From: Tribonema minus
Taxonomy: Eukaryota > Sar > Xanthophyceae > Tribonematales > Tribonemataceae
Length of the DNA: 64,000 nt
Reading direction: 5' to 3'
NCBI GenBank assembly: GCA_017506865.1
Contig: JAFCMP010000224.1
Coordinates: forward strand, 248,001-312,000
This document shows positions 6,397 to 61,806 of this stretch, piece after piece. A model generated the notes under the pieces. It saw nothing but the letters and a program-made list of their open reading frames with translations, was not told the origin of the DNA and made no database searches. The first letter of the stretch is position 1, and each line of letters begins with the position of its first letter. A program made the translations under genes and the position numbers.

Positions 6397-9300
6397 CTAG
6401 ATGAGCTGCGCGTCACGCACGGCCAGCTCCATGAAGAAGTCCTCTATGCGCCGCCGATGCCGCCTGCCGACCATCGTGTGGCCCGTCTCGTTGAACTTGA
6501 GCAGCTCGCGTTTGAGGTACTCGTACACGCCAAACTGTATGCCTGCAGTAGGGAGAGCGGATGGTGCGTGTGGATGAGCATCAGTGCGGCACAGCGATCG
6601 GGTGCGTGCGAACGCTGCGCTTCACGAGTTTACGGTCAGAACCATCATCGCGCTTGAGGTACTCGTACACGCAAAATCGTATGCCTGCGGTGGAGAGAGG
6701 CGCGGTGCGCGTGTGGTAGAGCATCAGCGCAGCGCGGCGATTCCGGCGCGTGCGACCGCTGTGCTTAACGAGTGCGCGGTCAGAATCATTCATGCACATG
6801 TCATGATACGTGTCAAAGGTGCTTCAAAGTTGTATGCTTGCGTTGATCAATGTATAATTCGTGCAGTGCATGTGTCGTGCGGGCGAGAGCGTCAAGCTGC
6901 ATCCCTTGGAGGCTTGATTCTCGTCTCTTACACCCTGTGTACGGATGATGCCTGCACTGTAGATCTGTCTGCGGCCATCTGCGGTGCAAGAGCGGGCGTG
7001 TTGAGAAACGCTGCCTGCATGCTGCGTGATAATTATGCCATGTGGCGTATAGCAAACCAGACTACTGACAAGCAGCCAGCGTAGGTCGGTAACTTGAAGT
7101 ACATGACAAACACGCCCTGGATGTAAGTACTGCCATCATCAAAACACCACGCTCGCCACCCCGGAGCTTCGTGTTCATGACATACAGACCGCAATGGTGA
7201 CCTCACCTATCATCGGTACCACGCTTGCTAGCCTTGGCCCAAGAGCTTTGTAAAGTGTCCCAATCCCCTCCTCCCGGATAACGCGCTGTATACACTCCAC
7301 AACCCCCGTATACGGCACCAGACCAGGAGTGGCAACCTGCTCACACAGGGGCAGCGACCTTGTGAGCATACTGGCGCTGTGGGGTGGTAACAGCAGATGG
7401 GGGTGGTTAAGTTCAAGAGAGACGTGCCTCTTGAAGTACAAAGCGAATGGCAGCGCTTCAGTGCTGACGAGGTAGCACAGCTGCAAAAGCTTTGACCGCG
7501 CTCATATGCACTGTGTGCACCAAACCTGGAGCTGCAACGTGCTGACATGGGGGCACCAGCAGGGTTTTGAGTGCAGCATGCAGCACCAACTGCGTCACAG
7601 AATGGCGTTGTGGGGTGGTGTACTTCGAAGTAGTTCATGATACACATGTTGCTTGAAGTACGAGCGCCCAGCACGCACTTCAATGTAAATGAGAGGGGCC
7701 TTCACAACTGCAGCGGCTCAGTTTAGGCGCATAATGCATCGTAGCAGTCCTTGCCAGCACTGAGCACTGTTCTGCAGCCTTGGTCAGCACATGAAGTGAA
7801 TGACAAGCGCAACAGCCATGACGCAACAGCAAGCAGGACAATTACCATGCCACGCACAGTGCAAGATTGCATGTACGCGCACCCAGCGGTAATCAGAACG
7901 CCAAGCTGGACAGCTTCAACATAAGACCATAGCGCCAGCCTCAATCTTAGCTCTAGTACGACCGCCACATCCCAGCCCTGATGCCAGCCATACACACACA
8001 GACACAAAATGCAGTGACCCTTTCCACCTCTTGCATCAAAGCCTACCCATTGACGACGACATGTGAAGTACGTGCAGCCACACTTGAAGTTGATAGTGAC
8101 GCACGTGCATGATGATGCGCCAACGACACGCGAAAGAACCAGCAGCGGCAGGTGCAGTCACGCGCCAACGACACTCAAGAAAAGAATCTGCTGCTGCAGT
8201 GAAGTCGATGCAGTTGCAGTCAATACTACAGTTGAAGTCATGGTGACGCACCTGCGTGACGATGCGCGTCTTGGCCGTGTCCAGCGGTATCAGGATGCAC
8301 ACCGTCGCCCCCGCCGCCGCCGCCCCCAGCGCAAAGTTCTCGCCGTTCGTGGGCTCCCTGCGCACGACCCTCTGGTGCGCCAGCTTGAACTGCTGGAAGA
8401 ACACCCACGTGAGCCCGTACGAGGGTATTTTCTGCGCCAGATTGGGCCCCCACCCCGCATAGAACCCCTTAAGCCCCTCCGTCTGCGATATAGTCCTGAC
8501 CGCCTGCTCATGGACACACAGTTGTTGGCACACAGGGGGTGAACGTAACAAGAGTTGGGGCATCTCGGGAAACACAAGTCAGGAGCACCGGGACCGAATG
8601 ACTGGCCCTGCACTGGTGACCTCATGCACCTACTTTGATCCTGTGAAGGACATGCGGTTTGACGCCCCAATATCAAAACACACATGCAATGGAGCTTCGC
8701 GTTAATGTCTGGGCGCGCTGCGCTGTCCCCTTCTGTCCCTTCCTGGCCTGGGTTGGTGCCCAGTTGCACAGTGTCTCATCTAGTTTGACACGTTTTAGTG
8801 ATCTGCGAGGCATTAAAGTTTGCCATGATGAGCAGCCTGCAAGTCCCGAGAACTAGGCTGCACTGCCAGGCGAACTTCAACAGCTGCAGTGATACTCAGC
8901 TCCGCCTGCATCTGCTTGCCATGAACTGTAGTTGACAGAGCGACTTCAGTAGCTGCAACATGACACCTGTCCTTGCGGCAGTGCGACGCAAGCGCCTGGT
9001 CAAAAGCAGAGTCCACTTGCCGGCTTGAATCTGCTGTCAACATGCGGCTTTCGCATCACAGGAAAACTGTGCATGAATCTGTGAGCTGATGCAGAGTCTT
9101 CATCTTGGAGATAATGCTCCTAGTGTCACAGCATGTACAGTACTCACCGACGCGAGGTTCGGGTAGATGTCAGCCATGATGCGGTCCGTGATCACCATCT
9201 GAGGCGTGCTGCAGGTACAGAGATTGTTCAAGTTGAAGTAAGTGTAGTCACGAAGCGTGTAGGTGAACAAGGTCATTGTTGGCAGCAATGCCAGTGGCAG

Positions 9301-17628: not shown

Positions 17629-17659
<31 letters not shown>

Positions 17660-19142: not shown

Positions 19143-19175
<33 letters not shown>

Positions 19176-19244: not shown

Positions 19245-19277
<33 letters not shown>

Positions 19278-21405: not shown

Positions 21406-24400
21406 CTAAGCGCTGGGCTCGGGGGCCACCTCCGTGTAGTTGATGGTGGATCGCTCCGCTATCCACTGCAGCACCATCTCCTTCTCCAGGGTCGCCTCCA
21501 CGCGCTCGCGCGCCGCTGCCTCGTCAAAGGGCTCCCCCTTGGCCTCCGCGCGCAGCAGCTCCATTTGGTCGTCCACCTCCAGGGGGTTCACCTGGGGGGG
21601 AGGGTGGGGTGGGGGGGTGAGCATTGCGATGCGAGCTAGGAGGAAGGGGGGGGGGGGGGGGGGGAGGACTGCAATGTGAGCTACAGAACAAGTGCGGGCA
21701 GCATTGATGCGTGCGTGTGGGTAAGGAGGGGACGGGGGTGGGCATTGTAGTTTGAGCTCCACGAGCACGGGCAGCATGTCCGCAGCCTGATACCAGTGGC
21801 GTTGTCTCAGCTGTATGAATGCGCAAGGCTGTGAAAATTGCTGAACCTGACGCAGCAGGGTGCCTGCAGCAGCTCCTCAGTGGTTGACACGCGCGCAACG
21901 CCCTACACTTGTCATATATAGAGGTGTGCTAGATGTTTGCAAGTGCGGAGATAACTTCAGCTTGAAGCAGCAGGGTGCCCGCAGCAGCGCTCACCTGGAG
22001 CCCCTCCTTCTCCGCAATGTCGCTGAGCGCCAGGCTGACCTGCAGCTGCTTGGTGGTGGACCCGCGTGCAATGTCCTTGTACTTGTTGAAGTTCTCAGGC
22101 GTGATCATACCGCGCAGCTCCTCGTCTGAGTGGGTGCCCTGCGCCTTCATCTGCGGTGGCGCGGCAGCATCGAGCATACAGGGGTATGCATGTATGGTGA
22201 GACTTCCGCGCATGGGCTGACAGTCAGGCTCAGACATAAAGCAAAGGGCCACAACAGTGTTGCACAGTGCAAGCAGGCAGCACTGCAGAGGTATACTTTG
22301 CCCAGCAATACATGCTGCCGCCTGCAGGGGGGTTGAGCAGCGCCAACAGCTTGTTTGTGAGAAGTGCTGCCCCTGTGATGGCCTGCCACTTTTGAAACGC
22401 CGTCAATGCACACTTTTGGATTCGCTTCCGCAAGCTTGTTGTTACAGGCAAACTTCAAATTCTTGGCACGTCACTCACGCAGCCATCATCATGGCAGAGT
22501 CTGGCGCGCCCTCACCGTGACCAGCGTCTCAGGATTTCACAGTCATTGTGAACTTCAACTGTGTGGCACATTACTCACGTCAGCCATCGTGATGGCACAC
22601 TTCTGACGCGCCCTCTCTGTCACCAGCGTCTTCACCAGCGTCTTAGGCAGTCACAAGCATGCTTATGAGGGCGAAGTTCAACTGACTGGCACGTCACTCA
22701 CGTCAGTCATCATCATAAATTCTGGCGCGCCCTCTCGGAGACCACCGTCGCAGGGGTTTACAAGCATGCTTGTTTCGTTGAACTTCAACCATGTGGCACG
22801 TCCTCACGTCAGCCACCATGATGGCAATGTTCAGGCGTACCCTCTCCGCGATCATTGTCTCGGGAATTGAAAGCTAAGCGTATCAGCGGCAAACTTCAAC
22901 TTCTTGGCACGTCACTCACGTCAGCCATCATGATGGCAAACTTCTGGCGCGCCCGCTCCGTGACCAGCGTCTCAGGAATTCACAAGCAGAGTTATTAAGT
23001 TGAACTTCAACTGTGTGGGACGTCACTCACGTCAGCCATCATGATGGCAAACTTCTGGCGCGCCCTCTCCGTCATCAGCGTCTCTGGGATCTCACAAGTG
23101 ATGCGCTCCAGCAGCGCAGCCTCCAGCGCGGCGTTGCGGCTCTCGTTCTTCTTCTTGTCGCCCTCCTGGTTGAGCGCTGAGAGCACCTGCGTTGTTGAAG
23201 TTTACAGATTGTCAGCGTACATGAAGGCATACGTACTGAGACACCTGTACACAAAACAAAAACTTCAAGCAGCTTAAGTGTAGCAGCTCTCATTGTTCTT
23301 GTTGTCACCCTTCTGGTTGAGCGCTGAGAGCACCTGCAGATGCTGTTGAACAGTGCAGAATTGTCAGCGTATATGAAGGCACATGTAACCAGTACTGAGG
23401 CACTTTGTAGCATACAAGAGTCTCAAGCTGTTACTCATTGCGCCTGGCGTGCTTCTCCTTGCTGTCATTGTGGCGAGCGCTGCGAGCATGAATGTAGGGA
23501 CATTATCAAGCACATTCAGGTGGGGTTGTGCCACGACATATGTGCAATAACTAAACAGGCAATATTGTTTTCCAATGCAGAGTCGCCGATGCGTGGAGCG
23601 TTGACGTACTGAACCAACCGCCTTGTGAGCAGCATATAACTGCCTGTGCAACTGCCCAAGGCATCTGCCACCAACCCTTGGCAGTAAAAATACCAGAAGC
23701 GACTGGCAACTTCTGGATGCCCACAGTGCTTTCCGCTGTGCTGTTGTGTTTTCAAGGACGGCTGAAGCGCGCATTCCTTTGCACCCAGCAAAGGCGCCGA
23801 GTCTCAACTGCAACTAAAACCCCATGAGCCCGGAGCCTGCGAATCGTTGTTATAGTTGAAGGCTCGTCCGATTCAAAATCACGTTGGAAGGACTGAGCCT
23901 GCAAGTTGTGTAATTGTGAAGTCTGGTGCTTCACCAAGCGAGCTTCAAGTTGAAGTACTTGCGGTACCCCCTGCATGTGCTTTTGACAGAGTACTGCAAC
24001 ATCTAACCCCCAGACTGGCCTGGCATAGACCGATGCTTTTCAAGAACCTTTTTGAAAGCAATTGCACGGCGGGAGAAGGCGCACGTCTACTAGCCGCCTC
24101 TTTGCACAGATGCGCCTGGGCACACGTCAGCCACAATTCGAACGCCATGATGCCGGTCACCTCCAGCACCGCAAGCACTCAGGCTTCATCATTGGCACAC
24201 TCATCGACACCGACAACCGCGTCTCACAGAAAACCTATCACAATGAAAGTGTGCACATCAAATGCGCCTCCTCACGTAACCAGCACCGCATTGCGCTGCC
24301 ACTACCGCAAGCGGCGACGCTCCCCCCTCCCTCTCACCTCCTCGCGCAGCTCCGCCATGGTCAGCCCCGGCCGGATCGCGTTCGCAAAGTCGTCGTCCAG

Positions 24401-29400: not shown

Positions 29401-30482
29401 ATTCAGCCTTCAATCTGACAGCAGACCCCCCTTCCTCCCAGTCAAACCGTGATCCCACCCCCAACACCTCCCCCCTCTGTGCGCATCATGCCGTTCTCTT
29501 CGAGGGGCACTGACCCCCCAGAGCCCCCCCCCTCTCCCTCTGTCGCGCGCCACCGGCGCCACCGCAGGGCCGCGACAAGCTCTCCGTCCTGCTGGAGGTG
29601 CTCGCGCAGCACGGCGGCAGCGGCAGCAGCGCGGCGGCGCAGGCGGCGGCGCGCACGCTCATCTTCTGCAACACGGTCGCGTCCGCGCGCGCCGTCGACC
29701 ACGCGCTGCGCGACGCCGGCGTCGCCGCCGCCGCCTACCACGGCGAGGTCCCCAGCGCTCAGCGCGCGGCGGCGCTTGCGGCGTTCCGCGCGGGGTCTCC
29801 TCCGCGGCTCGTGGCGACTGATGTCGCCGCGCGCGGCCTCGATCTGCCGGAGGTTGGCCATGTGATTATGTTTGACTTCCCGCTGAACCCGGTGGACTAC
29901 CTGCACCGCAGCGGGCGCACGGCGCGCATGGGCGCGCGCGGCCGCGTGACTTCCCTGCTCGCCAAGCGCGACCGTGTGCTCGCCGCCGCCATCGAGGCAG
30001 CAGTGCTCGCCGGCCGCCCCCTCGACGCCCTCACCGCGCGCCGCACCGACTACCTCCCTGGCGGCAAGCTCGCCGCCAAGAGCGGCAGCAGAGGCGGCGG
30101 CGGCGGCGGCAGCGGCAGCAGCGCTCGTCGTACTGGCAGCAGCGATGCGTCGGCGCGGCGGCCGCGGTCGGCGGCAGGGGGGGGGGGCAGGGGGGCGGCG
30201 GCGGGGGGAGGAGGGGGGCCTAGGGGAAAGGGGGTGCCAAGGCGCAGGCGGCGGGGCGGGGGCGGGCCGGGCGATGACTCGACTGGCGGTGTTTTGAGAT
30301 GTGTATGTAGTAGAGGCGGTAGAGGCTGGGTACGTTTTTGCTTAATGTCAATATCAGTGGGTTGTGTTTTTGTGTACATGCACGGCTGGTTGACTTGGCC
30401 TCATGCTGCTGATGTTGTGCGGGTTGTAGGGCGCTGGTGCTTTGTATGCGGTCTCTGCTGGCCAGCTTCTCAATCATCGTGA
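26460..30482 (+). CDS. DEAD-box-type ATP-dependent RNA helicase (DEVD variant), probably organellar
   Basis: Three exons, 26460-27110, 27782-28036 and 29568-30482, join in phase 0. Helicase motifs appear in order: Q-motif (FATPSSIQ), I (ATGSGKT, about residues 110-116), Ia (PTRELAAQ), Ib (GSPGRLL), II as DEVD in [13 protein letters not shown] (SAT), IV (LIFCNT), V ([10 protein letters not shown]) and VI (HRSGRTAR). Such enzymes remodel RNA or RNA-protein complexes, often in ribosome assembly. The N-terminal 50 residues are Arg/Ser/Leu-rich with few acids, consistent with mitochondrial or plastid import (DDX28/RH39-like). The C-terminus becomes Gly/Arg-rich ([12 protein letters not shown]) and ends at TGA 30480 in this frame. 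A miscounted G-run near 30178-30190 could shift it to the stop at 30297, so the last ~100 residues are uncertain. Intron 2 contains two kinds of repeat. Confidence 0.9.
27985..28160 (+). repeat. Copy of helicase exon 2 donor edge
   Basis: The exon 2 end (GACGCGCGACGTTCACCGCG...CACGCCATGGTCGACTGCAAG) is repeated from about 28098 to 28155 as GACGCGGGATGTTAACCGCG...CACGCCATGGTTGTCTGCAA. The donor itself is lost in the copy (CAATGAC instead of CAAGGTGAG). Unit spacing is about 117 bp. Confidence 0.82.
28337..29422 (+). repeat. Three ~75 bp blocks at ~505 bp spacing in helicase intron 2
   Basis: A block beginning GATGATTGAAT and ending TTCAATCTGACAGC occurs at 28337-28412, 28839-28914 and 29349-29422 (spacings 502 and 510). 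Blocks 1 and 2 are nearly identical; block 3 has small changes. Fainter similarity continues between blocks, suggesting decayed ~505 bp tandem units. No coding potential or transposon ends were seen. Confidence 0.8.
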
Positions 30483-46200: not shown

Positions 46201-47380
46201 CTTGAAGTTGCATTGACGCGAAAAACGATTTCGCGCCAAGCGGCTGCATCACACAGTGGTCAAAGACAGCTCAAAATCTTAAGGGTGTTATCTCCACCCG
46301 CGAGCCCCAACAGCAGCACTAGCAATACCACCTCCAGCTCCATCCTCACATTCAGACGTGGAGGTACTTGCTTGCTTTCCAAATGATGTGCAAGCCACAA
46401 TAGGGTAACCACACAAAAAGTACCACCAGGCCTAAATAGGAATGCCCAAAAAAACACCCAGGCCTAATAAGGATCGGTGCCCGGTACGCTCCTAATTCTT
46501 GACTGACCGGCCTAATTTGGCACATGACGGTAGCGGACCTGGCGCTCGGAGGCCGAATGACAGCGCTCACCACCTCCACATGGCCCCGCCACCCCAACTC
46601 CTCAAGCGTCACTGAAAAGGAATTCACTAATGCAAACTTCAACATGGATTTCAGGCATACATGGGCGTTTGCCATCTCAGCATGTGCCGGCCAGCACGAC
46701 CTTTAAGGCGTCTCTGACTGCAAGTCCACGAGTACAACTTCAACAACGACTTCCTGTACAGGCCAGCTGATGCTTGTACAGTCAGCACCGGCTTTATTTC
46801 TACAAATCTATGTACTCGGAAGTATACTAAGTACACATTGCGCGAACCTCGCTCTCAGCAGCCGTGTAACACCTAGAGCTCACCAGCTCCAAGTCCCCCG
46901 CCACCGCGAGTCCTCGAGTACGAGTCAGAGTGACCAGACTTCAAGTGCGCATACGCCATGCGCACCTGGCTCTCGGCGGCCGTATGATAGCATTCACCAG
47001 CTCCATGTACTCTGCCACCACGAGTCCCCCGAGTACGAGTCAGAGTGACCAAACTTCAAGTGCGCCCACGCCATGCGCACCTGGCTCTCGGCAGCCGTAT
47101 GATCGCGTTAAGCAGCTGCGCGTAGCCCGCCACCACGAGTCCTCGAGTACGAGTCAGATTAACCACACTTCAAGTGCGCACATGCCCCGCAACCTGCGCA
47201 CCTGGCTCTCGGCGGCCGTATTATCGCATTCACCAGCTCCGCGTAGCCCGCCTTTGCCATCTGCAGATACGACATGTCGTCGCCATCAGGGTCGATGCCG
47301 GCACCGTCCTCTGCCGCGGTGAGCGCGCTGCTGCGCCTGTCGCCGCCCTGCTGCCTGTCCTGCGCCGCCGCCGCCAGCAT
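37216..47380 (-). CDS. Alpha/beta hydrolase with C-terminal RanBP2-type zinc finger
   Basis: Eight exons on the minus strand, 47202-47380, 45364-45505, 44016-44189, 43034-43142, 41877-42046, 40873-41004, 40185-40256 and 37216-37992, all close in frame (about 584 residues). The fold is a serine hydrolase of the protist/plant group that begins YxELxNAIIRPPR, then KFKFNGRAFRRSDFELTNPR. The oxyanion motif is YLHGNSS, the nucleophile elbow GRSMG (Ser about 187), and acid and base are in HATGDD and DGDHNSQRP (His about 309). The large last exon adds a low-complexity Ala/Ser/Pro linker and ends with WECGRCTLINEALCDACEAC, a RanBP2 zinc finger (C-x2-C-x10-C-x2-C with N) that binds ubiquitin or RNA in other proteins. 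Substrate unknown. An acceptor-like CAG just upstream of the chosen ATG suggests an earlier exon, so the N-terminus is provisional. Introns total about 8.4 kb and are crowded with junction copies. Confidence 0.87.
39016..39180. repeat. Interstitial telomere-like CCCTAA tracts
   Basis: Four uninterrupted CCCTAA units are at 39016-39041, and further units with changes at 39107-39127 and to about 39170. They lie in the last intron of the hydrolase gene, far from any chromosome end visible here. Confidence 0.9.
39455..39780. repeat. Interstitial telomere-like TTAGGG tracts, opposite orientation
   Basis: Degenerate TTAGGG arrays at about 39455-39570 and 39660-39780 are on the opposite strand to those at 39.0-39.2 kb. 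The two are linked by a repeated AACCTTGCG-containing phrase near 39442 and 39650. All are in the same intron. Confidence 0.85.
41530..41960 (-). repeat. Tandem copies of hydrolase exon 5 donor edge
   Basis: The end of exon 5 (plus-strand CACCTTGATGTTGAAGTTGG from 41874, then CGCGCGCCACGCTCGCGCG and CACGGCGAG) is repeated at about 41736 and 41628 with donor-like CACCTTG or TACCTTC, and more weakly at 41538. Unit length is about 110-140 bp. The most distant copy translates to a look-alike (FASDFNIK) but lacks the GT. Confidence 0.88.
42000..42235 (-). repeat. Copy of hydrolase exon 5 acceptor edge
   Basis: CAGGTCCGCAAACGCGCTGT and the following CATGGCCGCGATGCCTG acceptor at about 42005-42048 recur at about 42178-42221 with few changes (CATGGCGGCGATGCCTG). 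The copy lies in intron 4. Confidence 0.9.
42945..43500 (-). repeat. Copies of hydrolase exon 4 donor and acceptor edges
   Basis: Donor side: the edge near 43030-43080 is copied at about 42955-43015. Acceptor side: GATGACGGCGCCCTGAGG at 43130-43147 recurs at about 43263-43281 and 43449-43466. Each copy is followed by GCGTCAC/GCGCCAC and a GTTGAAGT-type block. Exon 4 is therefore flanked by copies of its own two edges. Confidence 0.85.
43690..44710 (-). repeat. Copies of hydrolase exon 3 donor and acceptor edges
   Basis: Donor side: TTGCACTCACCAAGTCGTCC at 44007 recurs near 43850 and 43697 in degraded form. Acceptor side: the CGAGCGCTGCTGTTGCCGTGCAGGTACACC segment at about 44147 is repeated near 44313, 44472 and 44663. 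Between copies are CCTAACCCTAGTCCTNGGGNAAGACAGCTGCG phrases, which themselves repeat three times. Confidence 0.85.
45070..45410 (-). repeat. Copies of hydrolase exon 2 donor edge with G-run expansion
   Basis: The exon 2 end with CACGCCACCCGTCGGGCTCC at about 45372 is echoed at about 45238 and 45083. In the middle copy the GGG has expanded to a 24-base G-run (45250-45273). Each copy is followed by GCTGCGCTTGA and a GAGCACTG motif. Confidence 0.82.
45510..45534 (-). repeat. 25-base C-homopolymer just before an acceptor
   Basis: In gene orientation this is a run of C ending two bases before the CAG acceptor of hydrolase exon 2 (AG at 45506-45507), so it occupies the polypyrimidine-tract position. 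Confidence 0.85.
46840..47270 (-). repeat. Tandem array copying hydrolase exon 1 donor edge
   Basis: The donor edge near 47195-47250 (GCGCACCTGGCTCTCGGCGG, then ATTCACCAGCTCC) recurs at about 47077 and 46961, and in decayed form at 46842 and 46535. Unit length is about 116-120 bp and each unit includes CACGAGTCC, TCGAGTACGAGTCAGA and ACTTCAAGTGCGC. Confidence 0.92.
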
Positions 47381-49865: not shown

Positions 49866-50418
49866 CGTCTCTCTGTGTACGCAGGAGCTCCCGAAAACAA
49901 AGACGCAGGCCTGTGGCGAACTGGCTCTGACAGAAAATACTAGGCGATGTACCGCCAGATTGAATAGTGGCTATTAACACTGCGCTAACGGCGACGTACA
50001 CGCATCCTCGGCGAACAAAGCAGACGAAGCCTTGCAATGAAACCCCCCCTTTTGATTCCAATCCCCCCCTGAAACGGCTCGTAGCCCTCAGGAGCTGCTG
50101 CAGCGGCGCCACGACGACTGCAGAGTTTATTGGGGTTGTGCCGCGGTGGGCAACAGCAGCACGAAACGAGAGGAGTGACCATTGTTAGCACCAGCCGAAG
50201 GCCCTCTGTAGCTGTCCAGGGGCACAAGAGACAACAGCTGCTCACCGAGTTGTTGTCTTAGGCACCAGTTGTCAGCCCAGCATCAAAGCGAGGGCCTGGC
50301 CCTTATACGGTGCAGGGAGACATTGTTGAGGCGAAAATAATGCCGTCTGATCATAAGCCGGGCCATCCGGCCAGCCCAACCCACGGACACGCACACCGGG
50401 TGTCTCATGGTTCCGACG

Positions 50419-50704
50419 CGCGAAGGTGGGCAACGAGCAGGACAGCGACTCCACAACGTTTTGCAGCACGCCTTAGCAGCTGCGTTTACAGCGGTGTATG
50501 TAGTATCAGCGCTGCTGATTGCTCTTACTCACCAGGACGCTTTGCCCTAGTATGTGTGCGCGCGAAGGTGGGCATCCAACGGGACAGCGACTGCACATGC
50601 GTATTGCAGCACGTTCTAACAGCTGCTTTGTCTACAGCGGTGTATGTAATATTGGCGTTGCTGATGGCTCGGTCTGACTAGGACGCTTTGTCCCTGTATG
50701 TGTG
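50419..50704 (+). repeat. Two ~142 bp tandem units before a putative acceptor
   Basis: CGCGAAGGTGGGC at 50419 and again at 50561 begin two units that share GACAGCGACT, GCAGCACG, ACAGCGGTGTATGTA and GGACGCTTTG. The second unit runs into the CCCGCAG acceptor at 50711-50717. Confidence 0.85.
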
Positions 50705-50717
50705 CGCGTGCCCGCAG

Positions 50718-50949
50718 GTCGTCTAGGTCTGGGTCAGTTGTGTTTCCGGAAGCCACGGACGAGGGGAAGCCCAAACTGTTCGCGCGGCAAAGCTTTCTGG
50801 TGACTGCTGACAATGAGGCGATGGCGGAGACTATACTGGAGGCCAGAAAGCTAGGTGCGCAGGCTTTCACAGGAACTGCTGATGAGCACTTGGGATCGTC
50901 GGTGCACCCTGTCGGTGCAAGCCATTTGACTGTCTTAGCGGCAACATGA
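50718..50949 (+). CDS. Putative exon of an unrecognised plus-strand gene
   Basis: After a CCCGCAG acceptor the frame reads SSRSGSVVFPEATDEGKPKL, then FARQSFLVTADNEAMAETIL and EARKLGAQAF, which looks like real protein. It either ends at TGA 50947 or is spliced at AAAGCTAG|GTGCGC near 50852. No upstream or downstream exon was placed, and I do not recognise the family. The tandem units before its acceptor resemble those at confirmed exons, which mildly supports it. Confidence 0.35.
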
Positions 50950-51826
50950 GGATTGGCACCATTACGTCCGTGACAGCCAGACAGTGAACTGCCTGAGGCA
51001 GAAATAAGAGGTAGAGAGCAGGGCAGTAGTGAGTCTGCTCAGGGGGGGTACAGTCCTAAGGTACGTCAGAGAGCGCGATACGCCATGTTGATATGATAGC
51101 ATGACTGTCGGAGTGTCACATCATGTGCACTGGAAGACACAAAATATCTATTAAGCTACCGAGCATCACCCCTGCAGTGTATCATGGCCATAACTTGCAC
51201 AAGAACTGCTGGGGCACTGCATGAAGCAGTCAACGCTGCAGTGCATTCTTGTTGACTTCTGTCCAACACAGCTGCAGGCGGACCTTCATTTAAACGACAC
51301 ATCTCAGGTAAACAGCGAGCCAGCCCTTGAAGCTGTAACATTGTGTGCATGCCGCCGCTCTGGACGTAGCGGACTGCCCTGTGCGTTTGGGCAACAGACA
51401 AGGCGCAGATGCTGATAGACCGAGACCACAGTGCAGCTCATAGAACTCACCAGTGACATTACCAAGCACTTGCTGTGGCCAGCAATATACATTTGCATTC
51501 GCTCATTGACCCATGCACCGCCTCGGCAATGGAAGAGCGGAGCTCTGTCATGGGTGTGCTGACGACTTGCCTAGCTGTAGGCAATGGATTCACGCTCATC
51601 CACCGCTGATTTTCTGTCAAGTGCACCCATGCAGAACTAATTTGCGGAGCGGCGCCGGCCAGTCACAGACTGTGGAGCACTCACTTCCGGCGCTCACTGC
51701 GCATTCATTCGCTGATGCGCCCGCCTCTGCTTCAAATTCAACAGTGCCGCGGCGGCGCACTGCCAATTCATATACTGTGTAGTGCATTCATTCATGAACG
51801 CATTCATTCGTGCATGCCATTTAGCG
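50950..51826. other. Region upstream of the phosphatase gene
   Basis: No gene is supported. It should hold the promoter of the phosphatase gene. ATTC-type tetranucleotide repeats begin near 51784. Confidence 0.45.
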
Positions 51827-52110
51827 ATGGAGCGGCGGCGCTCCGTTGCGGACGACGGCGGCATGCGCGCCCTCGCGCTTCATGCATTCATTCATTCATT
51901 CATCCATTTGTTCATTCATTCATTCACTCATTCGCCCACTCAGCAATGGAGCGGCGGCGCTCCGCTGCGGACGACGGCGGCATGCGCGCCCTCGCGCTTC
52001 ATGCATGCATTCATTCATTCATCCATTTGTTCATTCATTCATTTACTCATTCACCCACTCAGCAATGGAGCGGCGGCGCTCCGTCGCGGACGACGGCGGC
52101 GTGCACGCCC
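51827..52110 (+). repeat. Three tandem copies of the phosphatase start-codon region, 119 bp unit
   Basis: The start codon with ATGGAGCGGCGGCGCTCCG is present at 51827, 51946 and 52065, exactly 119 bp apart each time. Units also share GCGGACGACGGCGGC and an ATTCATTCATTC/CATCCATTTG tetranucleotide stretch. Only the third copy leads in frame into the spliced gene; the first two stay open but run out of frame with it. Confidence 0.95.
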
Positions 52111-55100
52111 TCGCGCGCCGCGCCAGCGCCGACGACAAGGCCGCGGCGATGGCGGCGCAGGCAACTGCGGCGGCGGCGGCAGCAGCGGCGGCCGCCGCCG
52201 CAGAGGCCGCGGAAGCCGAGGCGGCGGCGGCGGCGGAGGCGGCGGAGGAGGGGGACAAGCCGCACCTGGATGAGCGGCGGCGGTCGAGCGCGATACAGAA
52301 GCTGCCGCCGCAGCTGCGCGCGCTGATGCAGCAGTCGGACGAGAACGGCATTCAGCAGAAGGTGAGAGCGGAGGGGGTTGGTTACTGGTAGGGCTAGGGT
52401 TAGGGCAGGAGGCTGCCTGATCAGCAACTCTACGATTAGGGCTGCCGCCGCATAGCTGCGCGCGCTCATGCAGCAGTCGGACGAGAACGGGATACAGCAG
52501 AAGGTGAGAGCGGGGGGGAGGGGGGGGTGGGGGGGGTAGGCAGGGGCTGCCTGACTGTTAACCTCAAGATTAGGGCTGGTGGGCTCATGGTGCAGTTAAA
52601 CGAAAATGCGATTCGGCAGAAGGTGAGCGAAGGGGGGCGGTAATGGCTAGGCTCAGACGGGGGTTAGGGCGGGTGAGGCCTGATTATTAATAGGGTTGAG
52701 GCAATAAGGGTTCCACGCTCATGGTGCAGTTGGTTGAAAACAGCTTCTAGCAAAAGGTGAGCTGAGTGTGTGTTAGGGTTGGGATTAGGGCTAGGGTCAG
52801 GGCAGGGGTTGCCTGAAATCAGGCCCGACCCCCCGTAGATTAAGCCTGGGGCGGTGGGGGTTCCACGCTCATGTTTGAGTTGGACGAGAACGGCACTTGG
52901 CAAAAGGCAAGGTGAGGGCGTTTAGGGCTAGAGTGAGGGCGGGGGGGCGGGCAATCATCTCCACTTTGTCTGCACTTTGCTGTTATTTGAAAGGGGGGGG
53001 GGGGGGGAGGTGCTCAACGGTCACGTGTCACTAAATGCGCTGCAACATTGTCTTCATGGCTTCAAAGCAGTATTGATGGTTGGAGTTGAATACTGTGTGC
53101 AGCGCTCATCCCCGCATATTATGCACGCTCGCAGCCGAACCGCTCAGCGCGTCCCAATTTGTCGTGCTGCCCCTGCCCGCAGTGGGAGGCCCCCCCCATG
53201 CATCACCAGCTCACGGGAGTGCAGGAGGCCGCAGACGCTGAGGAGGAGTCCATACATGTGTCCGCAGACAGGTACGGCTCGCTTTTTAATGGCTCCAGGT
53301 GAAGTTGAACGTGGGTTGAAGACACAAAGGGATGTCCGTGCATGCCTCCGCAGACGGGTACGGCTCGCATTTTACATGGCTCCAGTTGTTGAACATAGCT
53401 TGAAAACACAAAGGGAAGTCCATACACGTGGCCGCAGACAGGTGTGGCTTGCGTTCAACATGACTCCAGCTGACACAGAATTCAACTTGAAGACAACTAT
53501 GCAATGTGTCGGCTGACAGGTGCAGCGCGCGTTCAACATGACTCCAGTTGAAGTTGGACATGGCGACGAAGTCAGCGACCGGGAAGTGCATCTTTTGAAT
53601 TTAGAATGGTGGCCCCCGATCCCGAGGAGAAGTCCATTCAACATTAATTCTACAGGAATGTAGTTTTGCATCGCGGTTCGGGGGTGGCAACCTGCAATCG
53701 CATCAGCACGTTGCACTTTATCTGCAAGAGCTTCACTGCGGCAGTTACTCATTGTCGCGGCACAAAGCCAACATTGCTCCGGCTAAAGTTCAATGTAGCA
53801 TTGAAGTTAGAGGAAAGGGAAGTGCATATCAGGTTGAAGTTGGACGTGATACCGCAGTTGAAGGCATGGCAAAGTGCAAGAGCATCAGCACACACTGGGG
53901 TGGTGCTGCGCAGGAACTGTGCTGCGCTTCTTGGTTCCAGGAGAGCTCAGTCGCAGGCTGTGCTGCACTATTAGATGATTCAGATCACCGCAGCAAGTTT
54001 TTTGTACAAGGCAGAATGGCGCGAACAGAGCATAATTCTCTGGAATCAGTGGTGTTAATAAGTAGGGGGGGGAAGGTAGGGCTTTCCCACCAATTCCAAT
54101 TTTTGTGCCTTCTCGTTTCCTCGTGTTTCATAAGGTGCGACACAAATATAAGAATTGGTAGGAGAGCCACAACTAGGGTTCCCCCCCCAGTGTGCTGGCG
54201 CATAGAAAGAGTCGAGCCGCAAGGCAGCATACCAGCTGAGCGGCGCTTAGAGAGGCCGCGTAAGGCACAGTAGCAACGTATTATAAGTAGCTAAGCCCAC
54301 CAACGCTCACCGGCAGCTTCATGGCGCGAGCAAGCAGCAAAAGCAGCCAGCGTTTGAAGTTCTGCCCTTTTTTCTGAGGCCGAATCCTGTTATTGCTTGC
54401 GCCACGGTGCTTGTCAGCGCGCCGTGGATAGCAGCCGACAGTCCACGATACATAGCATCAGTTCGTCCCATTACAAGTGCAACGCGCGCTGTGTCGACAT
54501 CGTTTCATCAAGCTTTCTTGAGGTTGTTGCAACAGGCGCCCTCAACAACAAGCGTACAGCAGCTGCAACACACAGCGAGAGCATGCACGTTGCAGCTGGT
54601 GATGTTGAGTGGCTATATTAGGATACATTTTACATGGTGTGCGCCAATCATATATGCGTGTGTGGCAACGCGCGAGCAACTGCATCTTGCAGAAAGCATT
54701 CAGCCACACCAAAGATGCATTTTCAGCCGCCGTACACCGCGCGAGCCGGTGGCATGAAGCAGACAATATCGTGGGACACTATACGACAGTAGCAACCTGT
54801 ACTGAGGCCACGGGCATGCGTGTGTGGTGTGTGCGCGCCGGTGGGGGGGTCGGGGGGGGGAGGACCCCCACCAATTCCTGACAAGAGTAAAAAAATATGC
54901 ACATGGACACACTTAAGAAACAGCATCATTTGTGCCATCTGAGTATCCCGGACAGAAACTGAACGCCCATGCACAAATTGGTGACCAGTTCGCTGATACC
55001 TGTGCACACCGCTCAGTCGCTGTGGACACGCTGCCAAACTTCAGCTGGTGCAGTGACGCTCCTACCAGCGGAGCACTGAACACACCGCTCAGTAGCTGCT

Positions 55101-58100
55101 GAGCGCTGACACAATGCCACCGCCCTTGCCCTCTGCCACCTCAACAGCCCGAAGCAGCAGTCGCAGTCAGCCTCAGGGAGCGGCGGCAACGGATGGTACA
55201 CCACCATGGTCAGCTGCTTCAAGGTACGCACAGAGCTGAACTTCAACAGAGGAGTGACTTGGCTTAACCATCTGTGCGTTCTTGCCAACGGATGGCACGC
55301 ACATCAAGATCAGCTGCTGCCTGCAGTTACTCTCGTCCACACCTCAACTTCAACAGCACAGTTCTCACCAACAGTGTGTGATTTGACCACACTATGCTTC
55401 TGAGCGCTGCTGCCAACGATCTCAGCTTTATCTACTTAGTAGGCCCCATCGAGCCGCAAGGCTGCTGCCACACAGAACTGCCGTATTGCGTTGAGCACTG
55501 CTGCATGAGGTTGAAGTTTGCCCCAAACAAGCGCGTTTGGCAACGAGTAGCACTTTCGGGGGCTCTGGTTGCGGCCTTTGCTGCCTGCATGTTGTGCATG
55601 TCTCCATCGATGCTCAACACACGCACAGTGCCCTGGCATCGCAATGACAGCGACGCCACAATCAAACAGTTTTCTCACCCTGATACATGCCAGGTTGTTC
55701 TGTGTGCGTTTTGCTGGCTGCAGGCGAAGTTCCAGCTGCGGCGCAGCAGGAGTCACTCGCCTAGCAAGGGCAGCAGGAGCACAAGATGCGCCGCTGTAAG
55801 TTGATGGAGCCTAATAGAAGTGCCGAGAAGTTTCAGTAGTCGTCATTGAGACACGTGCAGACTGTCACAAGCCATGTACATTCCGTACAGCAAGCTGAGC
55901 CATTCATCTGGGCTGCTTCGCGCCCTGAGCGAGAATTAACGAAAAGTACATCACCGTTATTAATTGAAGTTTCAAAAAAGACAGTAGGCTGATGGAGCGC
56001 AATGGAGCGCCACATCTTCATGAACCTCAAGTTTCAAAATCCTTCACAGTAGACAGTTTTCACGCCGCAAGTGTCGACGAATATGTACATGACAGCGACC
56101 GCCGCACCAAACAAACCAAGTTGCTGCGTCTTTGAGATGCGTGCGACCCGCAAGAGCCAACACTGTGAGCCGGTGTACATGGCTGCCGTAGGTACCATAG
56201 GTACACACCTACTAGCAACGACACACTGCTGGTTATTGTTGTCAAGCGCCGTCACTTTGGAACTGGCGGACACACGACAGCCACGTCGGCAAGTACACAA
56301 CTGCTGCACTTCTTGCAATCAAGAAACAAAACAGAACTCCTAGAAGGCATTGTATGTGGACGACCGCCACTTGAAGGTGGAGGACATGACAGCAGCGTGT
56401 TGACCAAGGCTCCAACATGGCTTGAACCAGCACGCAGACGGGGCCATCGATAACTGCCAAGGACGCAGAGGCCAGAGGCCAGCGCTGCGCCACCGCCACC
56501 GCTGCCCGCGCCTTGCTCCGGTCATCACCCCCCTTCGCACCCCTGCTTTGTCTGATTCTAGAAGGCTCCTCTTCACGCGCCCTCTATCTGTCTCGTCGCA
56601 AAGACTCGCCATTGCTCTTTGCGAACTTCCACGGTCCCAAAAAATCAGGCGGAAATGCCCCAGATCACACGCTGCGCGTTCGCCGCCCCCCCTCTCACGA
56701 CGCCATGCCTACCTACCCATCAACTTGTCGCACACCGCTCAGCGCTCGGACGAGGCGAATGATGACGCCAAGGCTGCGACTGCCGCGGCAAGCACCGCGC
56801 CGTCCAGCGCCACCGGCAGCGGCAAGGGCAAGACGTTCACGACGTCGGAGCCGACCGTGCCGGCGTCGCTGCTGCCGCCGCAGGCAAAGGTATGTACGTA
56901 GGTATTCCACCTGTATGTATGTAGGTATTCGAACTGCTCAATGCACGACCTTCACGACATTGGAGCCGATCGTGCCGGCGTCGCTGCTTCCGCCGCAGGC
57001 CAAGGTATGTAGGTATTGGACGCATTGCTGAACGGGCATTTTTGTGGTCAGGTTTGGGACGGGGGGGGGGGGGGGGGGGGGGGGCGCTAGCTGCTGCTCG
57101 CCTTGGTGCACATATGCGGTGCATGGTACAGGGTGGTAGCTCTAAACGCAACCCTTCTTGTATCTTACAAGCACGCCTTCAGCGCATGCGCGCTGCTGGC
57201 CAACGCAACGGCCATATTGCGTGATGCCCTGATCGGTTTGCTTCACGCTGGTTTTCTTTTGGGTGTGGTATCGAAGTACTCGGTTGATGGGTCTGAGGCA
57301 CACCAACAGTGATGATTGGACGCATGGCCTCATTTCAGACCGCAGTCAAAGCACATACTTCTATCATCAAATGTGACCACGATCTGTCATCTTACTTTGA
57401 AGTCATGTGGCGACCGTCAATGCAACCAGCATGAGCCTTGTACCAATTCGCCGGCCGCTTACCCTCATCCTGTGACCACCGTCACTCACAACACCGCGTG
57501 CCCCGCAGCAATTTGCCGGGCGCTTGCTGTGCGCATCTTCAGGCGTCTCCACAATCTGTGACTCTGCAACTGTAGTACGTCGCGCGCGTTTGCAAACCTC
57601 TCAATGATGTGTCATCCTGTATATAACCGCCGTCAGTGCAATCATCACGCGTCTCGCAGCAATTCGCTGGGCGCAAGCTGCTGGTCCTGGACTTGGATGA
57701 AACGCTGGTGCACTCATCGTTCAAGCCCGTGCCGACCTCCGACTACATTCTCGACATCATGGTGGACTCCACTGCCTACAAGGTCAGTGAAAAAGCGGGG
57801 GTTGCCGCACTGCTGCACTTAGCTGGCATTGCGCTGCGGCAGCGTTTAGGTTCAGGGTTAGGGTTGGCGTTAGGGCCAGGTTGCAGGCCCTAGGGCACGT
57901 GCCGGCGGAGTGGCCCAAACCTAACCCTAACCCTAAATTCAACTGTCCAGCCGAGTATGAACACGGCAACGCTGCGCACTGCACACGCCTCGGTGCGTTG
58001 CGAGGTTATGCGGTCTGGTACGACTGAAAGGTTGTGCATGTACATGGGAAGAAATGGCATAATCCAGTACATACACACTCCTACATACAGGGCGCCATCG

Positions 58101-61100
58101 CCACTTGCACATTGTCTGTGCAGCGTTCACTCTTCCCTGCTGTAGCAGCTACACGCGCTACTTGCTCTGAGATGGTACTGAGCACTGCGCACAGCCCTGG
58201 CAGCATAGCTCATCATCCCACGTCCGTGGATGAGAAGTTATTCACCCAAGGTGTCCAAAAACAAAATCTCGCCAGCGTGCCTGCAAGTGCATGTGTTTGC
58301 ACCCTCATGCGTGCCTGCGAAAGCCGCAGTTCCCTTTCCCAGTCACGCATCGAACTGCCCCGTGTGCCGCTCTGATCGCCTACGATGCATCGTGTCGCTG
58401 GTGCCACTTTCCTCATACTTCTCGTGGTCCACAAAATGCGTGGGGTTAGGGTTAGGGTTAGGGTTAGGCTCACGTGTGGAAGCTCCCAATCTTTTTTCCC
58501 CCATTGTTCGTTTATTCAACTGCCCCCTGTTGCCCTTCGCAGGTGTTTGTGCTCAAGCGCCCTGGTGTCGATGAGTTCCTGGAGCGGGTGTCCAAGGACT
58601 ACGAGGTGCGTCAACTTCAATGTTCATGAAAATGAATCAAAAGATCGTAGAGCTCTAGGTGACAAGGGATGGTTAGCCGCAAGTGCCATCCACCAGTAAC
58701 TGTGGTCGCCGCTGCTGCAGCAATTGGCCACGAGTCAAACAATACCACCGTATCCACCAGTCTAATGTGTGACAAGGTGTTTCACTTCACCACCACTGTG
58801 CATGGACAAGTGCATATGCGTCGAAGTACTATAGGTGCGGCACCACCAATGCTCATGTATGTATAGAGTGACAGTAAGGTGCATTATCACCATTGGTATA
58901 CGAAGAAGTATATATGGGTGTCCAAGGACTATGAGGTGCGTCACCATCAAATGTAATGCATTGGAGCCCTATAAGGTGCGTCACCATTACTGTTCACGTA
59001 GAAGTATATATGGTGGTCCAAGGACTATGAGGTGTGTCAACTCTAATGTGCATGTATCTATGTATGTATAGGCGACAAGGTGTTTCACCACCACCACTGT
59101 GTGTATATACATGTCTGGAACATCACAGTAGCAACGATCTCAATGCGTAGGAACCTGTTGTTCTTGCAGCCCGGGCAGTGCCTGGTGGGTGCCGTTGGGT
59201 GGCCAGAGACATGATGCATCATTACCAATGAGTATGTATAAGAACATAATGCGTCATTGAATACATACAGAGTATCCGCCGCGCCCCCACAGCTGTGCAT
59301 GTAGGCCTTGAGGTGCATGACCACGTTTGACCACCTTAGAGTATTAGGGGAGAGCCGGCAATGCCTCTGAAGGGTAATCACTTTTGGCAGGCATTATTGT
59401 AGTTCAGGCAATGCCTGGTGGCGGCCATGCATTGCATTCATGTAGACCAGACAAAGCTTCTGGGATCAATCAATCCGCGTGACTTCACTGCCCAGGGCAT
59501 CATTGCGTGGCCACAGTGCTGCTGGACATAGGCACATCATTTCATTCACATGAATCTGCACGTTAGTTCATAGGTATATGATTGTGTGCGCGCAGGTGAC
59601 ATTTCCGGCTGCCACAATCATCCCTCGAGATGTTGATTACTGAATTCATCCACACATGCTCTCTGCTGAACTCATTGATCAAGTCACCATGATTTCATGC
59701 ACACTAACCTCTGCTGAATTTATCGATGAAATTCATCCATGATTGTGCGTGTACGCAGGTGATCATCTTCACGGCCTCGCTGCCGCAGTACGCCAACCCC
59801 CTGCTGGACATGCTGGACCCTAAGGGCTACATCACCGGCAGGCTGTTCCGCGAGCACTGCACGTTCCACGAGGGCTACTTTGTCAAGGTGCGCCACCAGC
59901 TGAGCACTGCTGCACTTGCCATTGCTGTGCACAATGGCGCAGAAAACTGCACACATAATAAGGCTGTTCCGCGAGCACTGCACGTTTCACGAGGGGTACT
60001 TTGTCAAGGTGCGCCGCCCGCTGAGCACTGCTGCGCTCGCCATTGCTGTGCACAATGGCGCAGAAAAGTGAAGACATAATAAGGCTGTTCCGCGAGCACT
60101 GCACGTACCACGAGGGCTACTTTGTCGAGGTGCGCCGCCTGCTGATCAGTGCTGCACATGCCATCGCTGTGCGCAACGTCGCGGAGTAACGAACATAGAC
60201 TGCGATAATATTGAGTTGACGGAGAAAATTGGCGAGAGACTGCAATGCTGGGGGCAGAACACTCAAGGAAAGTGTTGATTGAGACCTGATGTTCCTCAAC
60301 AAGACGACGGATTACTCTGTCGAGATGCTCTGCTTGCTGAGCGAACATCTGCACATAATAACGGTGCGCGCATGATGCGGTCTGTCCAGCCCGTGGCGGT
60401 GGGGTACAAGGACATGGTATGTATGTATCATAACACACGCGTGCACCATGCATGTAGGATGCATTCATGCGTGAACTTTTACGCAGGCACTACTTGTGCT
60501 ATGCTGATGGATGGATGTATGAATGTTTCTACAGTCATGTTGTTGGTGACAATGGCAGCGGCAAACAGCGGCAGAGCCGTAGCCGATGCAATGCAGCCGC
60601 CATCACTTGTGCTCCGCTCTCACTGCGATCGGTAATGCAACACAGGGTAGATGGTGCAGCTTGTGTACTGCAAGTGTACATCTGTAGTTTATCTACTATT
60701 GGTGCAGCTTGTGTACTGCAGGTGTACATCTGTACTTTATCTACTATTTGAGGGGCGGAAACCCTTTGAAAAACGCAACTAGTGTAGACATGTGCTGTGT
60801 CAAGCGTGCAAGACATGCGCTATTTACACATCTATACTTCATGTGTACTCACCGCGTGCCTACCTGAATGATGCTGTACCACAGGACCTCACTCTCCTGC
60901 GCAACAACAAGAATCTGTCGGACACTATTATCGTGGACAACTCGCCCATGGCGTACATGTTTCAGCCGGACAACGCCATCGACTGTACCAGCTGGCTTGA
61001 GGTTAGCATGAACTTCCGTACTTCGAGTGCATACTTCATGACTTGAAGAAGGTTCAATCAGTGGCATGCGACAGGGTGCCCATTTGCTGGTTGAATACAT

Positions 61101-61806
61101 GCTGTAGGTGTATCTGCGATGAACATATCAATATAGAATGGGCGTGTCAGCAGTCTGTACACGCCTATTTGCTGGTTGAATGCGTACATACCATTGCTGC
61201 TGGTTTGAAAAAAACACACAGCAGGCCGTGACGCGCCCCACCACTGCTCTGCTCTCAGCATACATCATCAGTCAATCCCCCTTTGCAGCTGTAAAAGCAG
61301 GCGCGCATGTAAAGTATGTTGTCACCGTTGCATGCTTCACCACCACGGCCTGACCCTCATTCTGCTGCTGCATTAGGTACATCGTAAACTAGCCAACACA
61401 CACACTACCTCGACCCCGCACGAGGATACTGAACGCACGGGCTGGCACGCGACTGTCACTGTGCCGCATGATTCACCCCCTTGCCCCCTCCCCCCCCCAC
61501 CCTCCCCCCAAGCCCTTGCTGCAGGATCCAGCACCTCACACAATGTCACCTCACACCCATATCACATACGAACGACGCTGAACGTGTTCTATTGGCTGGC
61601 ATACGATTGTGACTGTGCCGCAAGACTCACCCCCTTGCCCCCCCCCCCCCCCCCCCCCCCCGTTGTCGCAGGACCCTGTGGACGAGGAGCTGTACGTGAT
61701 TGCAGACTTCCTGGAGAAGACCAAGGACGTAACCGACGTCCGTGACTACGTTGAGTTCTGGCGGGAAGGGGCGGAGGTGCTGAGCCCTGTTTCGGCCACC
61801 TCATAG
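52065..61806 (+). CDS. FCP1/SCP-type protein phosphatase (NLI-interacting factor / CTD small phosphatase-like)
   Basis: Ten exons are 52065-52361, 53183-53271, 55148-55223, 55724-55795, 56743-56889, 57660-57782, 58543-58605, 59759-59887, 60885-61001 and 61672-61806. Every junction is GT-AG and all phases close, giving about 415 residues. The C-terminal half is a haloacid-dehalogenase phosphatase domain: catalytic DLDETLVHSS (Asp238/Asp240), then VFVLKRPGVDEFL, VIIFTASLPQYANPLLD, FREHCTFHEGYFVKDL, IIVDNSPMAYMFQPDNAI and a C-terminal helix. These enzymes remove phosphate from Ser, for example in RNA polymerase II tails. The N-terminal ~225 residues are low-complexity, starting MERRRSVADDGGV and containing Ala/Glu runs. 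The N-terminal exons 2-5 are supported by splice sites and phase only, less strongly than the catalytic exons. Introns total about 8.5 kb and most carry junction copies. Confidence 0.9.
52362..52920 (+). repeat. Tandem copies of phosphatase exon 1 donor edge
   Basis: The exon end GACGAGAACGGCATTCAGCA plus AG|GTGAG (donor 52362) recurs with its donor at about 52504 (three changes in the last 30 bases), 52623, 52757 and 52913. Spacings are about 142, 119, 134 and 156 bp. Divergence rises with distance. TTAGGG-like spacers lie between units. Confidence 0.92.
53255..53560 (+). repeat. Tandem copies of phosphatase exon 2 donor edge
   Basis: TCCGCAGACAG|GTACGGCTCG at 53261 recurs at about 53347 (CCGCAGACGGGTACGGCTCG), 53432 (CCGCAGACAGGTGTGGCTTG) and 53511 (GGCTGACAGGTGCAGCGCG). 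Units are about 78-86 bp and also share ACATGGCTCCAGTTG and a GAAGACA/AAAACACA block. Confidence 0.93.
56855..57020 (+). repeat. Copy of phosphatase exon 5 donor edge
   Basis: CCGTGCCGGCGTCGCTGCTG through CAAAG|GTATGT at about 56862-56895 recurs at 56969-57011 with few changes, including an intact AAG|GTATGTAGGTATT donor. Unit length is about 113 bp. Confidence 0.93.
57061..57084 (+). repeat. 24-base G-homopolymer in phosphatase intron 5
   Basis: A pure G-run of 24 bases on the coding strand lies about 50 bp after the exon 5 donor copy. Its length may vary or be misassembled. Confidence 0.9.
57440..57690 (+). repeat. Copies of phosphatase exon 6 acceptor edge
   Basis: The acceptor and exon start CGCAGCAATTCGCTGGGCGC at 57655 are echoed at about 57506 (CGCAGCAATTTGCCGGGCGC) and 57439 (TACCAATTCGCCGGCCGC). 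Both extra copies lie in intron 5; the middle one keeps a usable CAG. Confidence 0.88.
58440..58470 (+). repeat. Interstitial TTAGGG tract
   Basis: Four perfect TTAGGG units occur in phosphatase intron 6, about 75 bp before the exon 7 acceptor. Confidence 0.95.
58590..59080 (+). repeat. Copies of phosphatase exon 7 donor edge
   Basis: GTCCAAGGACTACGAG|GTGCGTCA at 58590 recurs at about 58919 (GTCCAAGGACTATGAGGTGC) and 59017 (GTCCAAGGACTATGAGGTGT). Partial forms (GACAAGGTGTTTCAC, CCTATAAGGTGCGTCACC) are near 58771, 58968 and 59081. AGAAGTATATATGG accompanies several of them. Confidence 0.88.
59840..60185 (+). repeat. Three copies of phosphatase exon 8 donor edge, 121 bp unit
   Basis: GGCTGTTCCGCGAGCACTGC through TTTGTCAAG|GTGCGCC begins at 59841, 59962 and 60083, exactly 121 bp apart. 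The second copy keeps the exon bases and donor nearly intact and the third has more changes. The intronic part (GCTGAGCACTGCTGC...ATTGCTGTGCACAATGGCGC) is copied too. Confidence 0.96.
60653..60748 (+). repeat. 2 x 48 bp tandem repeat in phosphatase intron 8
   Basis: A 48 bp unit starting GGTGCAGCTTGTGTACTGCA occurs at 60653-60700 and 60701-60748 with two differences. Confidence 0.95.
61460..61690 (+). repeat. Copy of phosphatase exon 10 acceptor edge with C-run expansion
   Basis: The segment ACTGTGCCGCAAGACTCACC, then CCCTTGCCC, a C-run and GCAGGA before exon 10 (61612-61675) is matched at about 61456-61530 (ACTGTGCCGCATGATTCACC, CCCTTGCCC, interrupted C-run, GCAGGATCC). The real one has a pure 24-base C-run at 61638-61661, in the polypyrimidine-tract position. 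Confidence 0.9.

Follow-up and report, generated by a model that had tools for sequence, protein, structure and literature searches.

Introns of Tribonema minus genes carry tandem copies of their own splice junctions

Many introns in a 64,000-nucleotide stretch of the Tribonema minus genome (the window, positions 248001 to 312000 of contig 224 in an assembly of 158 Mb and 554 contigs) are occupied by direct repeats containing the neighboring exon edge, its splice site, and intron sequence. Such junction copies had been noticed in an earlier note, made by reading this DNA alone; the observation was confirmed and extends beyond the window. Their probable source is recurrent small tandem duplication, tolerated where the exon and its splice site stay intact and occurring at a rate about 3- to 6-fold higher at junctions.

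Nine spliced genes of the window were modeled by hand, giving 33 introns with a total of 26,286 bp and a median length of 770 bp. A Pfam match above the cut-off was obtained for eight of the nine, with the helicase scanned in part only, and the scan of the Elongin-B-like model gave no match above the cut-off. The first exon or its start is absent from the carrier, COA7/Sel1, and Elongin-B-like models, and the helicase model stops at 30297, its reading frame continuing to a stop codon at 30482. Genes of the window carry what we take to be plastid-type presequences, which suggests an alga with a secondary plastid.

The 60-mers over each splice junction were compared with the remainder of their own intron. 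At a score of at least 44, 12 of 33 donors had copies spanning the junction, as did 5 of 33 acceptors, the top score in a shuffle control (30 per side) being 30. A lower threshold combined with a spanning rule gave 14 of 33 donors and 6 of 33 acceptors in the window, and the same rule gave 18 donors and 13 acceptors among 75 predicted introns of contig 1, so that donors stood above acceptors overall (32/108 versus 19/108, P = 0.054). The direct copies share the orientation of their source and lie close to it. Junction arrays make up 5,622 of the 26,286 curated intron bp, about a fifth, and the introns that hold them (n = 15) have a median length of 997 bp, compared to 630 bp for the 18 introns without one, among which are all seven introns shorter than 450 bp. 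The recurrent process of intron growth proposed in the earlier note agrees with this difference.

The units are not shared between genes, as the note had also held in arguing against transposition: none of 912 comparisons of donor edges with the introns of other genes in the window reached a score of 36. A mobile element, introner or other, was dropped as the source of the repeats on this ground and is given scarcely any credence, although the genome does contain a dispersed 127-base element that sometimes lies near donors. Copies of this element were seen in the window at 40735-40861, 58626-58752, and 28219-28261, and it has at least 41 matches in the genome at 93 to 100% identity (best 40 of 1,895 candidates scored). 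It lies 11 and 20 bases past the donor in two window introns, and four of eight intron-placed copies lie at most 50 bases from the donor (judged by eye, the L014/L020 and L025 copies being unplaced).

Another origin would be the birth of the introns themselves by tandem duplication of exon segments bearing AGGT, with the copies as leftovers, a mechanism that has been proposed and, in one case, demonstrated (PMC3443670). The start of an intron should then resemble the start of the next exon, and its end that of the previous exon; at a score of at least 40, the former was found in 1 of 108 introns (control, 1 of 108) and the latter in 1 of 108 (control, 0 of 108), which makes this origin very improbable.

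Arrays were placed relative to junctions by a repeat search that excluded low-complexity and telomere-rich pairs, offsets below 30 or above 1500, and pairs shorter than 35 bases; the null model shuffled array positions at random, allowing an overlap with coding sequence of no more than one unit. Curated junctions are spanned by 17 of the 20 arrays that lie in genes of the window (null, 7.9 ± 2.0; maximum of 15 in 2000 placements), and three arrays span no junction (28321-29422, 45096-45315, and 61440-61661). An independent sample of 200 kb from contig 1, with gene models from a home-made gene finder and counts over predicted exons of at least 36 or at least 45 bases, gave 42 of 60 in-gene arrays spanning a predicted junction (null, 22.7 ± 3.5; maximum of 36 in 1000) and 45 of 76 when all arrays were taken (null, 21.7 ± 3.7; maximum of 33 in 300). 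In a third set, 29 of 30 DEAD-helicase loci were used, the helicase of the window being excluded and the exon edges positioned by the gene finder. After removal of overlaps one way, 10 of 49 arrays lay at a Pfam-supported junction (null, 5.6 ± 2.1; P = 0.039), and after removal the other way, 15 of 50 did (null, 6.1 ± 2.2; reached in 0 of 1500); at any predicted junction the counts were 23 of 49 (null, 13.1 ± 2.7) and 26 of 50 (null, 14.6 ± 2.8). With the overlapping loci kept, the figure was 15 of 57 (null, 6.6 ± 2.3), which counts some arrays twice because three locus pairs overlap (L005/L027, L014/L020, and L016/L024). The comparison with random placement suggested in the earlier note came out as junction enrichment in all three sets, i.e., the window, the independent contig, and Pfam-supported exons with overlaps removed. 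Its statement that only exon edges are duplicated is not fully borne out, since intron interiors and other places have tandem duplications as well; the restriction to edges may in part be a survival filter, because exon-breaking duplications would be lost.

Gene ends were compared with splice junctions. At least 8 bases inside an array were 17 of 66 splice junctions versus 0 of 20 start and stop codons of the window (P = 0.006); the hydrolase start lies 1 base inside the array 47379-47656, and counting it as a hit gives P = 0.037. Seven of the 20 gene ends belong to single open reading frames read by eye, and the helicase end used is not the true stop. In the window, 7,042 of 26,286 intron bp fall within arrays, versus 1,721 of 29,398 other noncoding bp, or 394 of 24,716 when the partly unmodeled region 47381-52062 is left out, and across 20 sample loci array length tracks predicted intron length (Spearman 0.65, P = 0.002). 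On the donor side, coverage peaks at the junction (0.44 in the window and 0.30 in the sample) and at 400 to 600 bases into the intron is 0.06 in the window and only down to 0.20 in the sample; the acceptor side showed no clear peak.

An excess at junctions could also appear if duplications fell evenly over genes, with no preference for junctions, and exons filtered out the harmful ones; the exon half of a junction copy stays recognizable longer because it is compared with constrained sequence, and noisy gene models would add to the effect. This account, which we regard as rather unlikely, fits the tandem arrays found within introns and between genes. When births were simulated at an even rate (6,000 single-duplication draws, a score cut-off replacing the array search), junctions received 24% of the births and, through the constrained exon half, made up 29% of the arrays detected. 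The observed share is higher. At a noncoding identity of at least 0.8, 40 of 61 arrays lie at junctions (13 of 16 in the window and 27 of 45 in the sample), where 24 to 39% would be expected, and at 0.85 or above, 23 of 36 do. Against 38%, the 40 of 61 give a binomial P of 1.2e-5 (sample alone, P = 0.002), and the odds of 40:21 are about three times those of 38% and about six times those of 24%. The 17 of 20 obtained with hand-made models and the gene ends, of which arrays include only 0 or 1 of 20, likewise speak against even birth, and a genuine junction preference of about 3- to 6-fold is likely.

The sequence divergence of the copies is close to that of neutral decay. Donor copies are identical to the true edge at 0.894 of exon-side and 0.846 of intron-side positions, and to each other at 0.823 and 0.776, respectively. 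Exon-side changes were synonymous in 109 of 225 cases (116 other), compared to 0.26 at random, a share between random and coding constraint, as expected for drifting copies and a true exon in which most changes are silent. The copies thus appear to decay mostly neutrally while the true exon edge remains constrained. Most copies differ from their source by 5 to 25%, and arrays are present on many contigs, for which reasons an assembly artefact is given next to no weight, error-prone as tandem repeats are in assembly. Splicing seems to pass the copies by: the phosphatase model built without them aligns uninterrupted, from exons 6-9 into exon 10, to residues 215-387 of 2hhl, a solved CTD small phosphatase-like protein, which fits the true edges being in use and the exon 7 and 8 copies being absent from the protein.

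Selection might instead maintain the copies, either because they act as decoy or back-up splice sites or because they offer additional U1-binding sites. When the site is left unmasked, 43 of 45 aligned donor copies retain GT, compared to retention of 1018 of 1292 exon-side dinucleotides, and the copied donors score 5.26 against 5.63 for the true ones, with 3.44 expected after drift. Masking the donor site in the alignment removes most of this excess: GT is then in register in 34 of 44 copies (exon-side dinucleotide controls, 0.60-0.75), and the nine-base donor core has an identity of 0.828, compared to 0.77-0.83 in exon-side and 0.60-0.66 in intron-side controls. Use of a copied donor would moreover add an in-frame stop in 9 of 12 window cases and shift the frame in 7 of 12. 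At acceptors, the masked core retains an identity of 0.852 (exon-side controls, 0.68-0.75; intron-side, 0.52-0.62) and the site is kept in 16 of 21 copies, which counts against purely neutral decay, and some selection may act on copied acceptors. The conservation at masked sites is mostly accounted for by full constraint on the true site, and maintenance of the copies by selection is improbable as a general explanation.

The anatomy of the arrays was described from 65 junction-array pairs, in which some arrays are counted at two junctions. Offsets range from 74 to 434 bp, 60 of them within 74-241 and 51 within 90-190 bp, and the exon part of the unit measures 9 to 122 bases, with a mean of one third of the unit. 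Copies follow each other head to tail (gap of at most 5) in 31 of the 65 pairs. Donor spacing has no reading-frame bias (remainders 14, 17, and 17). The copy nearest to the exon is the most similar one in phosphatase exons 1 and 2, and trigger factor exon 4 is trendless, so that a strict conveyor belt, with the newest copy beside the exon, is only partly seen. In locus L038, where the first copy is identical to the exon edge for 55 bases, exon-edge units alternate with two types of intron sequence, a layout that shows higher-order growth. At L043:9265-9644 and L037:3892-4239, the gene finder calls edge copies as consecutive in-frame exons, possibly an exonization of junction copies.

Several points weigh against a junction-centered origin. 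The youngest in-gene arrays (identity of at least 0.9) lie at junctions in 6 of 12 cases (P = 0.10 versus 29%), which agrees with even birth, and these arrays alone do not prove a preference. Of the 80 arrays in genes, 15, all at junctions, were lost to the age filter because they had too few noncoding columns, and four further arrays fell out with a noncoding identity below 0.8. One de-duplicated variant of the DEAD set reached only the P value of 0.039 given above, and the score test on that set, run with the overlapping loci still in, picked out 3 of 26 donors and 5 of 23 acceptors, a modest yield. The window itself was picked for showing the pattern, the gene finder used on the contig-1 sample was trained partly on the window, and the sample is a single contig; five proteins of its 19 predicted genes were scanned, with a Pfam match in two and none of any kind in three. 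One tandem pair, at 61440..61661 (+), stays inside phosphatase intron 9 throughout and leaves 10 bases between itself and exon 10. Finally, 34 of the 65 junction-array pairs are not head to tail and have unaligned sequence between the copies. These gaps come about in more than one way: the intron half of the unit has decayed, filler is present, or elements were inserted later. Filler was seen by eye in L037 at 3874-4181, where a copy 94% identical over 129 bases comes with unrelated sequence, and in phosphatase intron 7 and in L046, a dispersed element separates the donor from the first copy.

The mechanism we propose is a small tandem duplication with one breakpoint on either side of a splice junction. 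At a donor, exon-GT-intron would become exon-GT-intron-exon'-GT-intron, with the mirror image at acceptors. The true exon edge would still be used in splicing, and because splicing keeps that edge, the added piece would turn into intron. Duplications that break an exon would be removed by selection, and the copies left in introns would mostly decay neutrally and sometimes be re-amplified into arrays. DNA near splice junctions would then break or undergo copying more frequently than other intron sequence, the physical cause plausibly being fill-in at staggered breaks and end joining, followed by array dynamics. Replication slippage, which the earlier note named beside repair, may also be the cause. 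Telomeric tracts (at least 12) overlap arrays in 18 of 45 cases, arrays making up 17.5% of noncoding bp (P = 3e-4); together with the L037 filler, this overlap points weakly to break repair, and arrays may also multiply the tracts. A stronger version can be put forward only tentatively, namely, that junctions, and donors above all, are hot spots of breakage or re-copying, each being duplicated repeatedly and several times faster than the inside of the intron, and that introns grow outward from their splice sites, storing a dated record of exon edges and occasionally returning copies as in-frame exons.

Intron lengthening is usually attributed to transposons and neutral insertions. Here, arrays built on the borders of the intron would link DNA instability to splice junctions in a form that can be counted and dated. 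The arrays also offer a natural experiment in splice-site choice, in which the spliceosome meets a number of similar exon edges, each with its donor, within a few hundred bases and apparently ignores the copies.

On the minus strand of the window, the earlier note had named carrier exons 3 and 5, trigger factor exon 4, a COA7-like exon 2, and hydrolase exons 1-5. In the carrier gene, the exon 5 acceptor edge has one tandem copy (6506..6789; unit of 142, 71/84 identical, AG kept), the exon 3 donor edge has a weak one (8081..8120; score of 45, 34/40 identical), and a further weak acceptor copy belongs to exon 4 (score of 38). Trigger factor exon 4 has the six donor-edge units described, i.e., the true edge ending at 23031 and five copies (22447..23098; identity of 0.81-0.90, GT in 5/5); acceptor-edge copies are present there as a single copy only, beside the edge at 23186 (23133..23387; 88/103 identical). 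The three COA7/Sel1 copies belong to the donor edge of exon 3 at 32532, apparently the exon 2 of the note (32230..32556), and this array contains TTAGGG-like words.

The hydrolase was borne out across its exons, with copies at donors 1, 2, 3, and 5 and acceptors 3, 4, and 5. The exon 1 donor edge (47202) has four copies (46533..47252; identity of 0.77-0.91), the exon 2 donor edge (45364) one copy spanning the junction (45192..45387), and the exon 3 donor edge (44016) one copy (43780..44036) and another weak one near 43715. Three copies accompany the exon 3 acceptor edge at 44189 (44124..44724) and two the exon 4 acceptor edge at 43142 (43090..43498). At exon 5, the donor edge (41877) is repeated within 41625..41969 (0.87-0.91), with a third, weaker copy near 41576, and the acceptor edge (42046) has one copy that begins 3 bases ahead of the exon (41997..42221; 65/72 identical).

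On the plus strand, the helicase exon 2 donor edge (28036), also named in the note, has one copy, which has lost GT (27974..28172), and a three-copy repeat within intron 2 spans no junction (28321..29422). Of the phosphatase exons named in the note (1, 2, 5, 6, 7, 8, and 10), copies were found at donors 1, 2, 5, 7, and 8 and at acceptor 6, and the exon 10 repeat at 61440-61661 stops short of the exon. The donor edge of exon 1 (52361) is followed by four copies (52301..52953; identities of 0.95, 0.80, 0.83, and 0.82), that of exon 2 (53271) by three (53247..53563), that of exon 5 (56889) by one (56828..57015), and that of exon 7 (58605) by three, with the dispersed element between donor and copies (58586..59054). 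The exon 8 donor edge (59887) has two head-to-tail copies with a unit of 121 (59840..60185; 0.94 and 0.91), and the exon 6 acceptor edge (57660) two weak ones (57414..57680; scores of 44 and 35). Weak copies also belong to the exon 3 donor (score of 36) and the exon 8 acceptor (score of 32). An array at 51487..52116 (+) covers the 5' edge of phosphatase exon 1, likely an acceptor with the exon beginning at 52063, and a 142-base tandem pair at 50417..50708 (+) appears by eye to lie over a donor, that of a putative first exon with its end at 50424; neither was counted as a junction.

Other features of the noncoding DNA were recorded alongside. Interstitial TTAGGG repeats occur in it, e.g., at 39016-39039, 42591-42608, 47457-47486, and 58443-58466; exact three-unit (18-base) matches number 11,474 in the genome including overlapping ones, with 0 for the reversed pattern. 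None of the 45 telomeric tracts in the window and sample is coding, and contig 2 starts with TTAGGG repeats. The word AACTTCAA is 8.6-fold overrepresented in introns of the window and sample, its heptamer has a density of 2.1 per kb in window introns versus 0.6 in other noncoding DNA, and CTTCAA/TTGAAG is denser in the first 40 to 60 bases past donors. The window has seven runs of at least 14 G or C, three of which occupy the polypyrimidine position, no more than about 10 bases upstream of an acceptor (24845-24861, 45510-45534, and 61638-61661). The short-chain dehydrogenase model has a GC donor (GCAAGT) at 12199, and two single-exon genes named by eye as SmG-like lie inverted to each other at 460-693 and 2993-3226, 75% identical over 128 bases.

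Literature searches, which did not reach preprints or most subscription journals, turned up no description of tandem arrays that span junctions throughout a genome. Intron gain by tandem genomic duplication is reviewed in PMC3443670, which lists Gao and Lynch 2009 and Hellsten 2011 among its references. That model starts from the duplication of AGGT-bearing exon sequence and so begins, as proposed for our arrays, with an internal tandem duplication of short length; here, in contrast, an existing junction is duplicated and the homology predicted by the model is absent. Introners, like the arrays, have changed intron content on a large scale in some lineages, and they spread copies between genes (PMC9860276 and PMC7789003), whereas the window units match no other gene's intron. 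Direct repeats near splice sites also lie at intron-exon borders, measuring 4 to 30 bp and coming from a comparison of the two borders of an intron (PMC11782384), unlike the copies described here, which derive from one border, span tens of bases, and lie inside the intron. Small tandem duplications are made by CST-Pol alpha fill-in at 3' overhangs and end joining, as seen at induced breaks in mammalian cells (PMC8355091). Joins made in this way should be near-blunt with little microhomology, and the breakpoints in our arrays have diverged too far for this to be scored. Interstitial telomeric repeats have been tied to break repair in mammals (PMC2246262 and PMC7215372). A close case is the potato RdRp gene, in which a tandem genomic duplication crossed an intron-exon boundary and carried splice signals in the copied piece (PMC4974935). 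That was a single acceptor-side event which created a new exon and intron, whereas here many junctions are affected, donors somewhat more often, and the copies remain in the intron. A single junction-crossing duplication has thus already been described, and intron growth by junction duplication, as proposed here, would be a new form of tandem genomic duplication.

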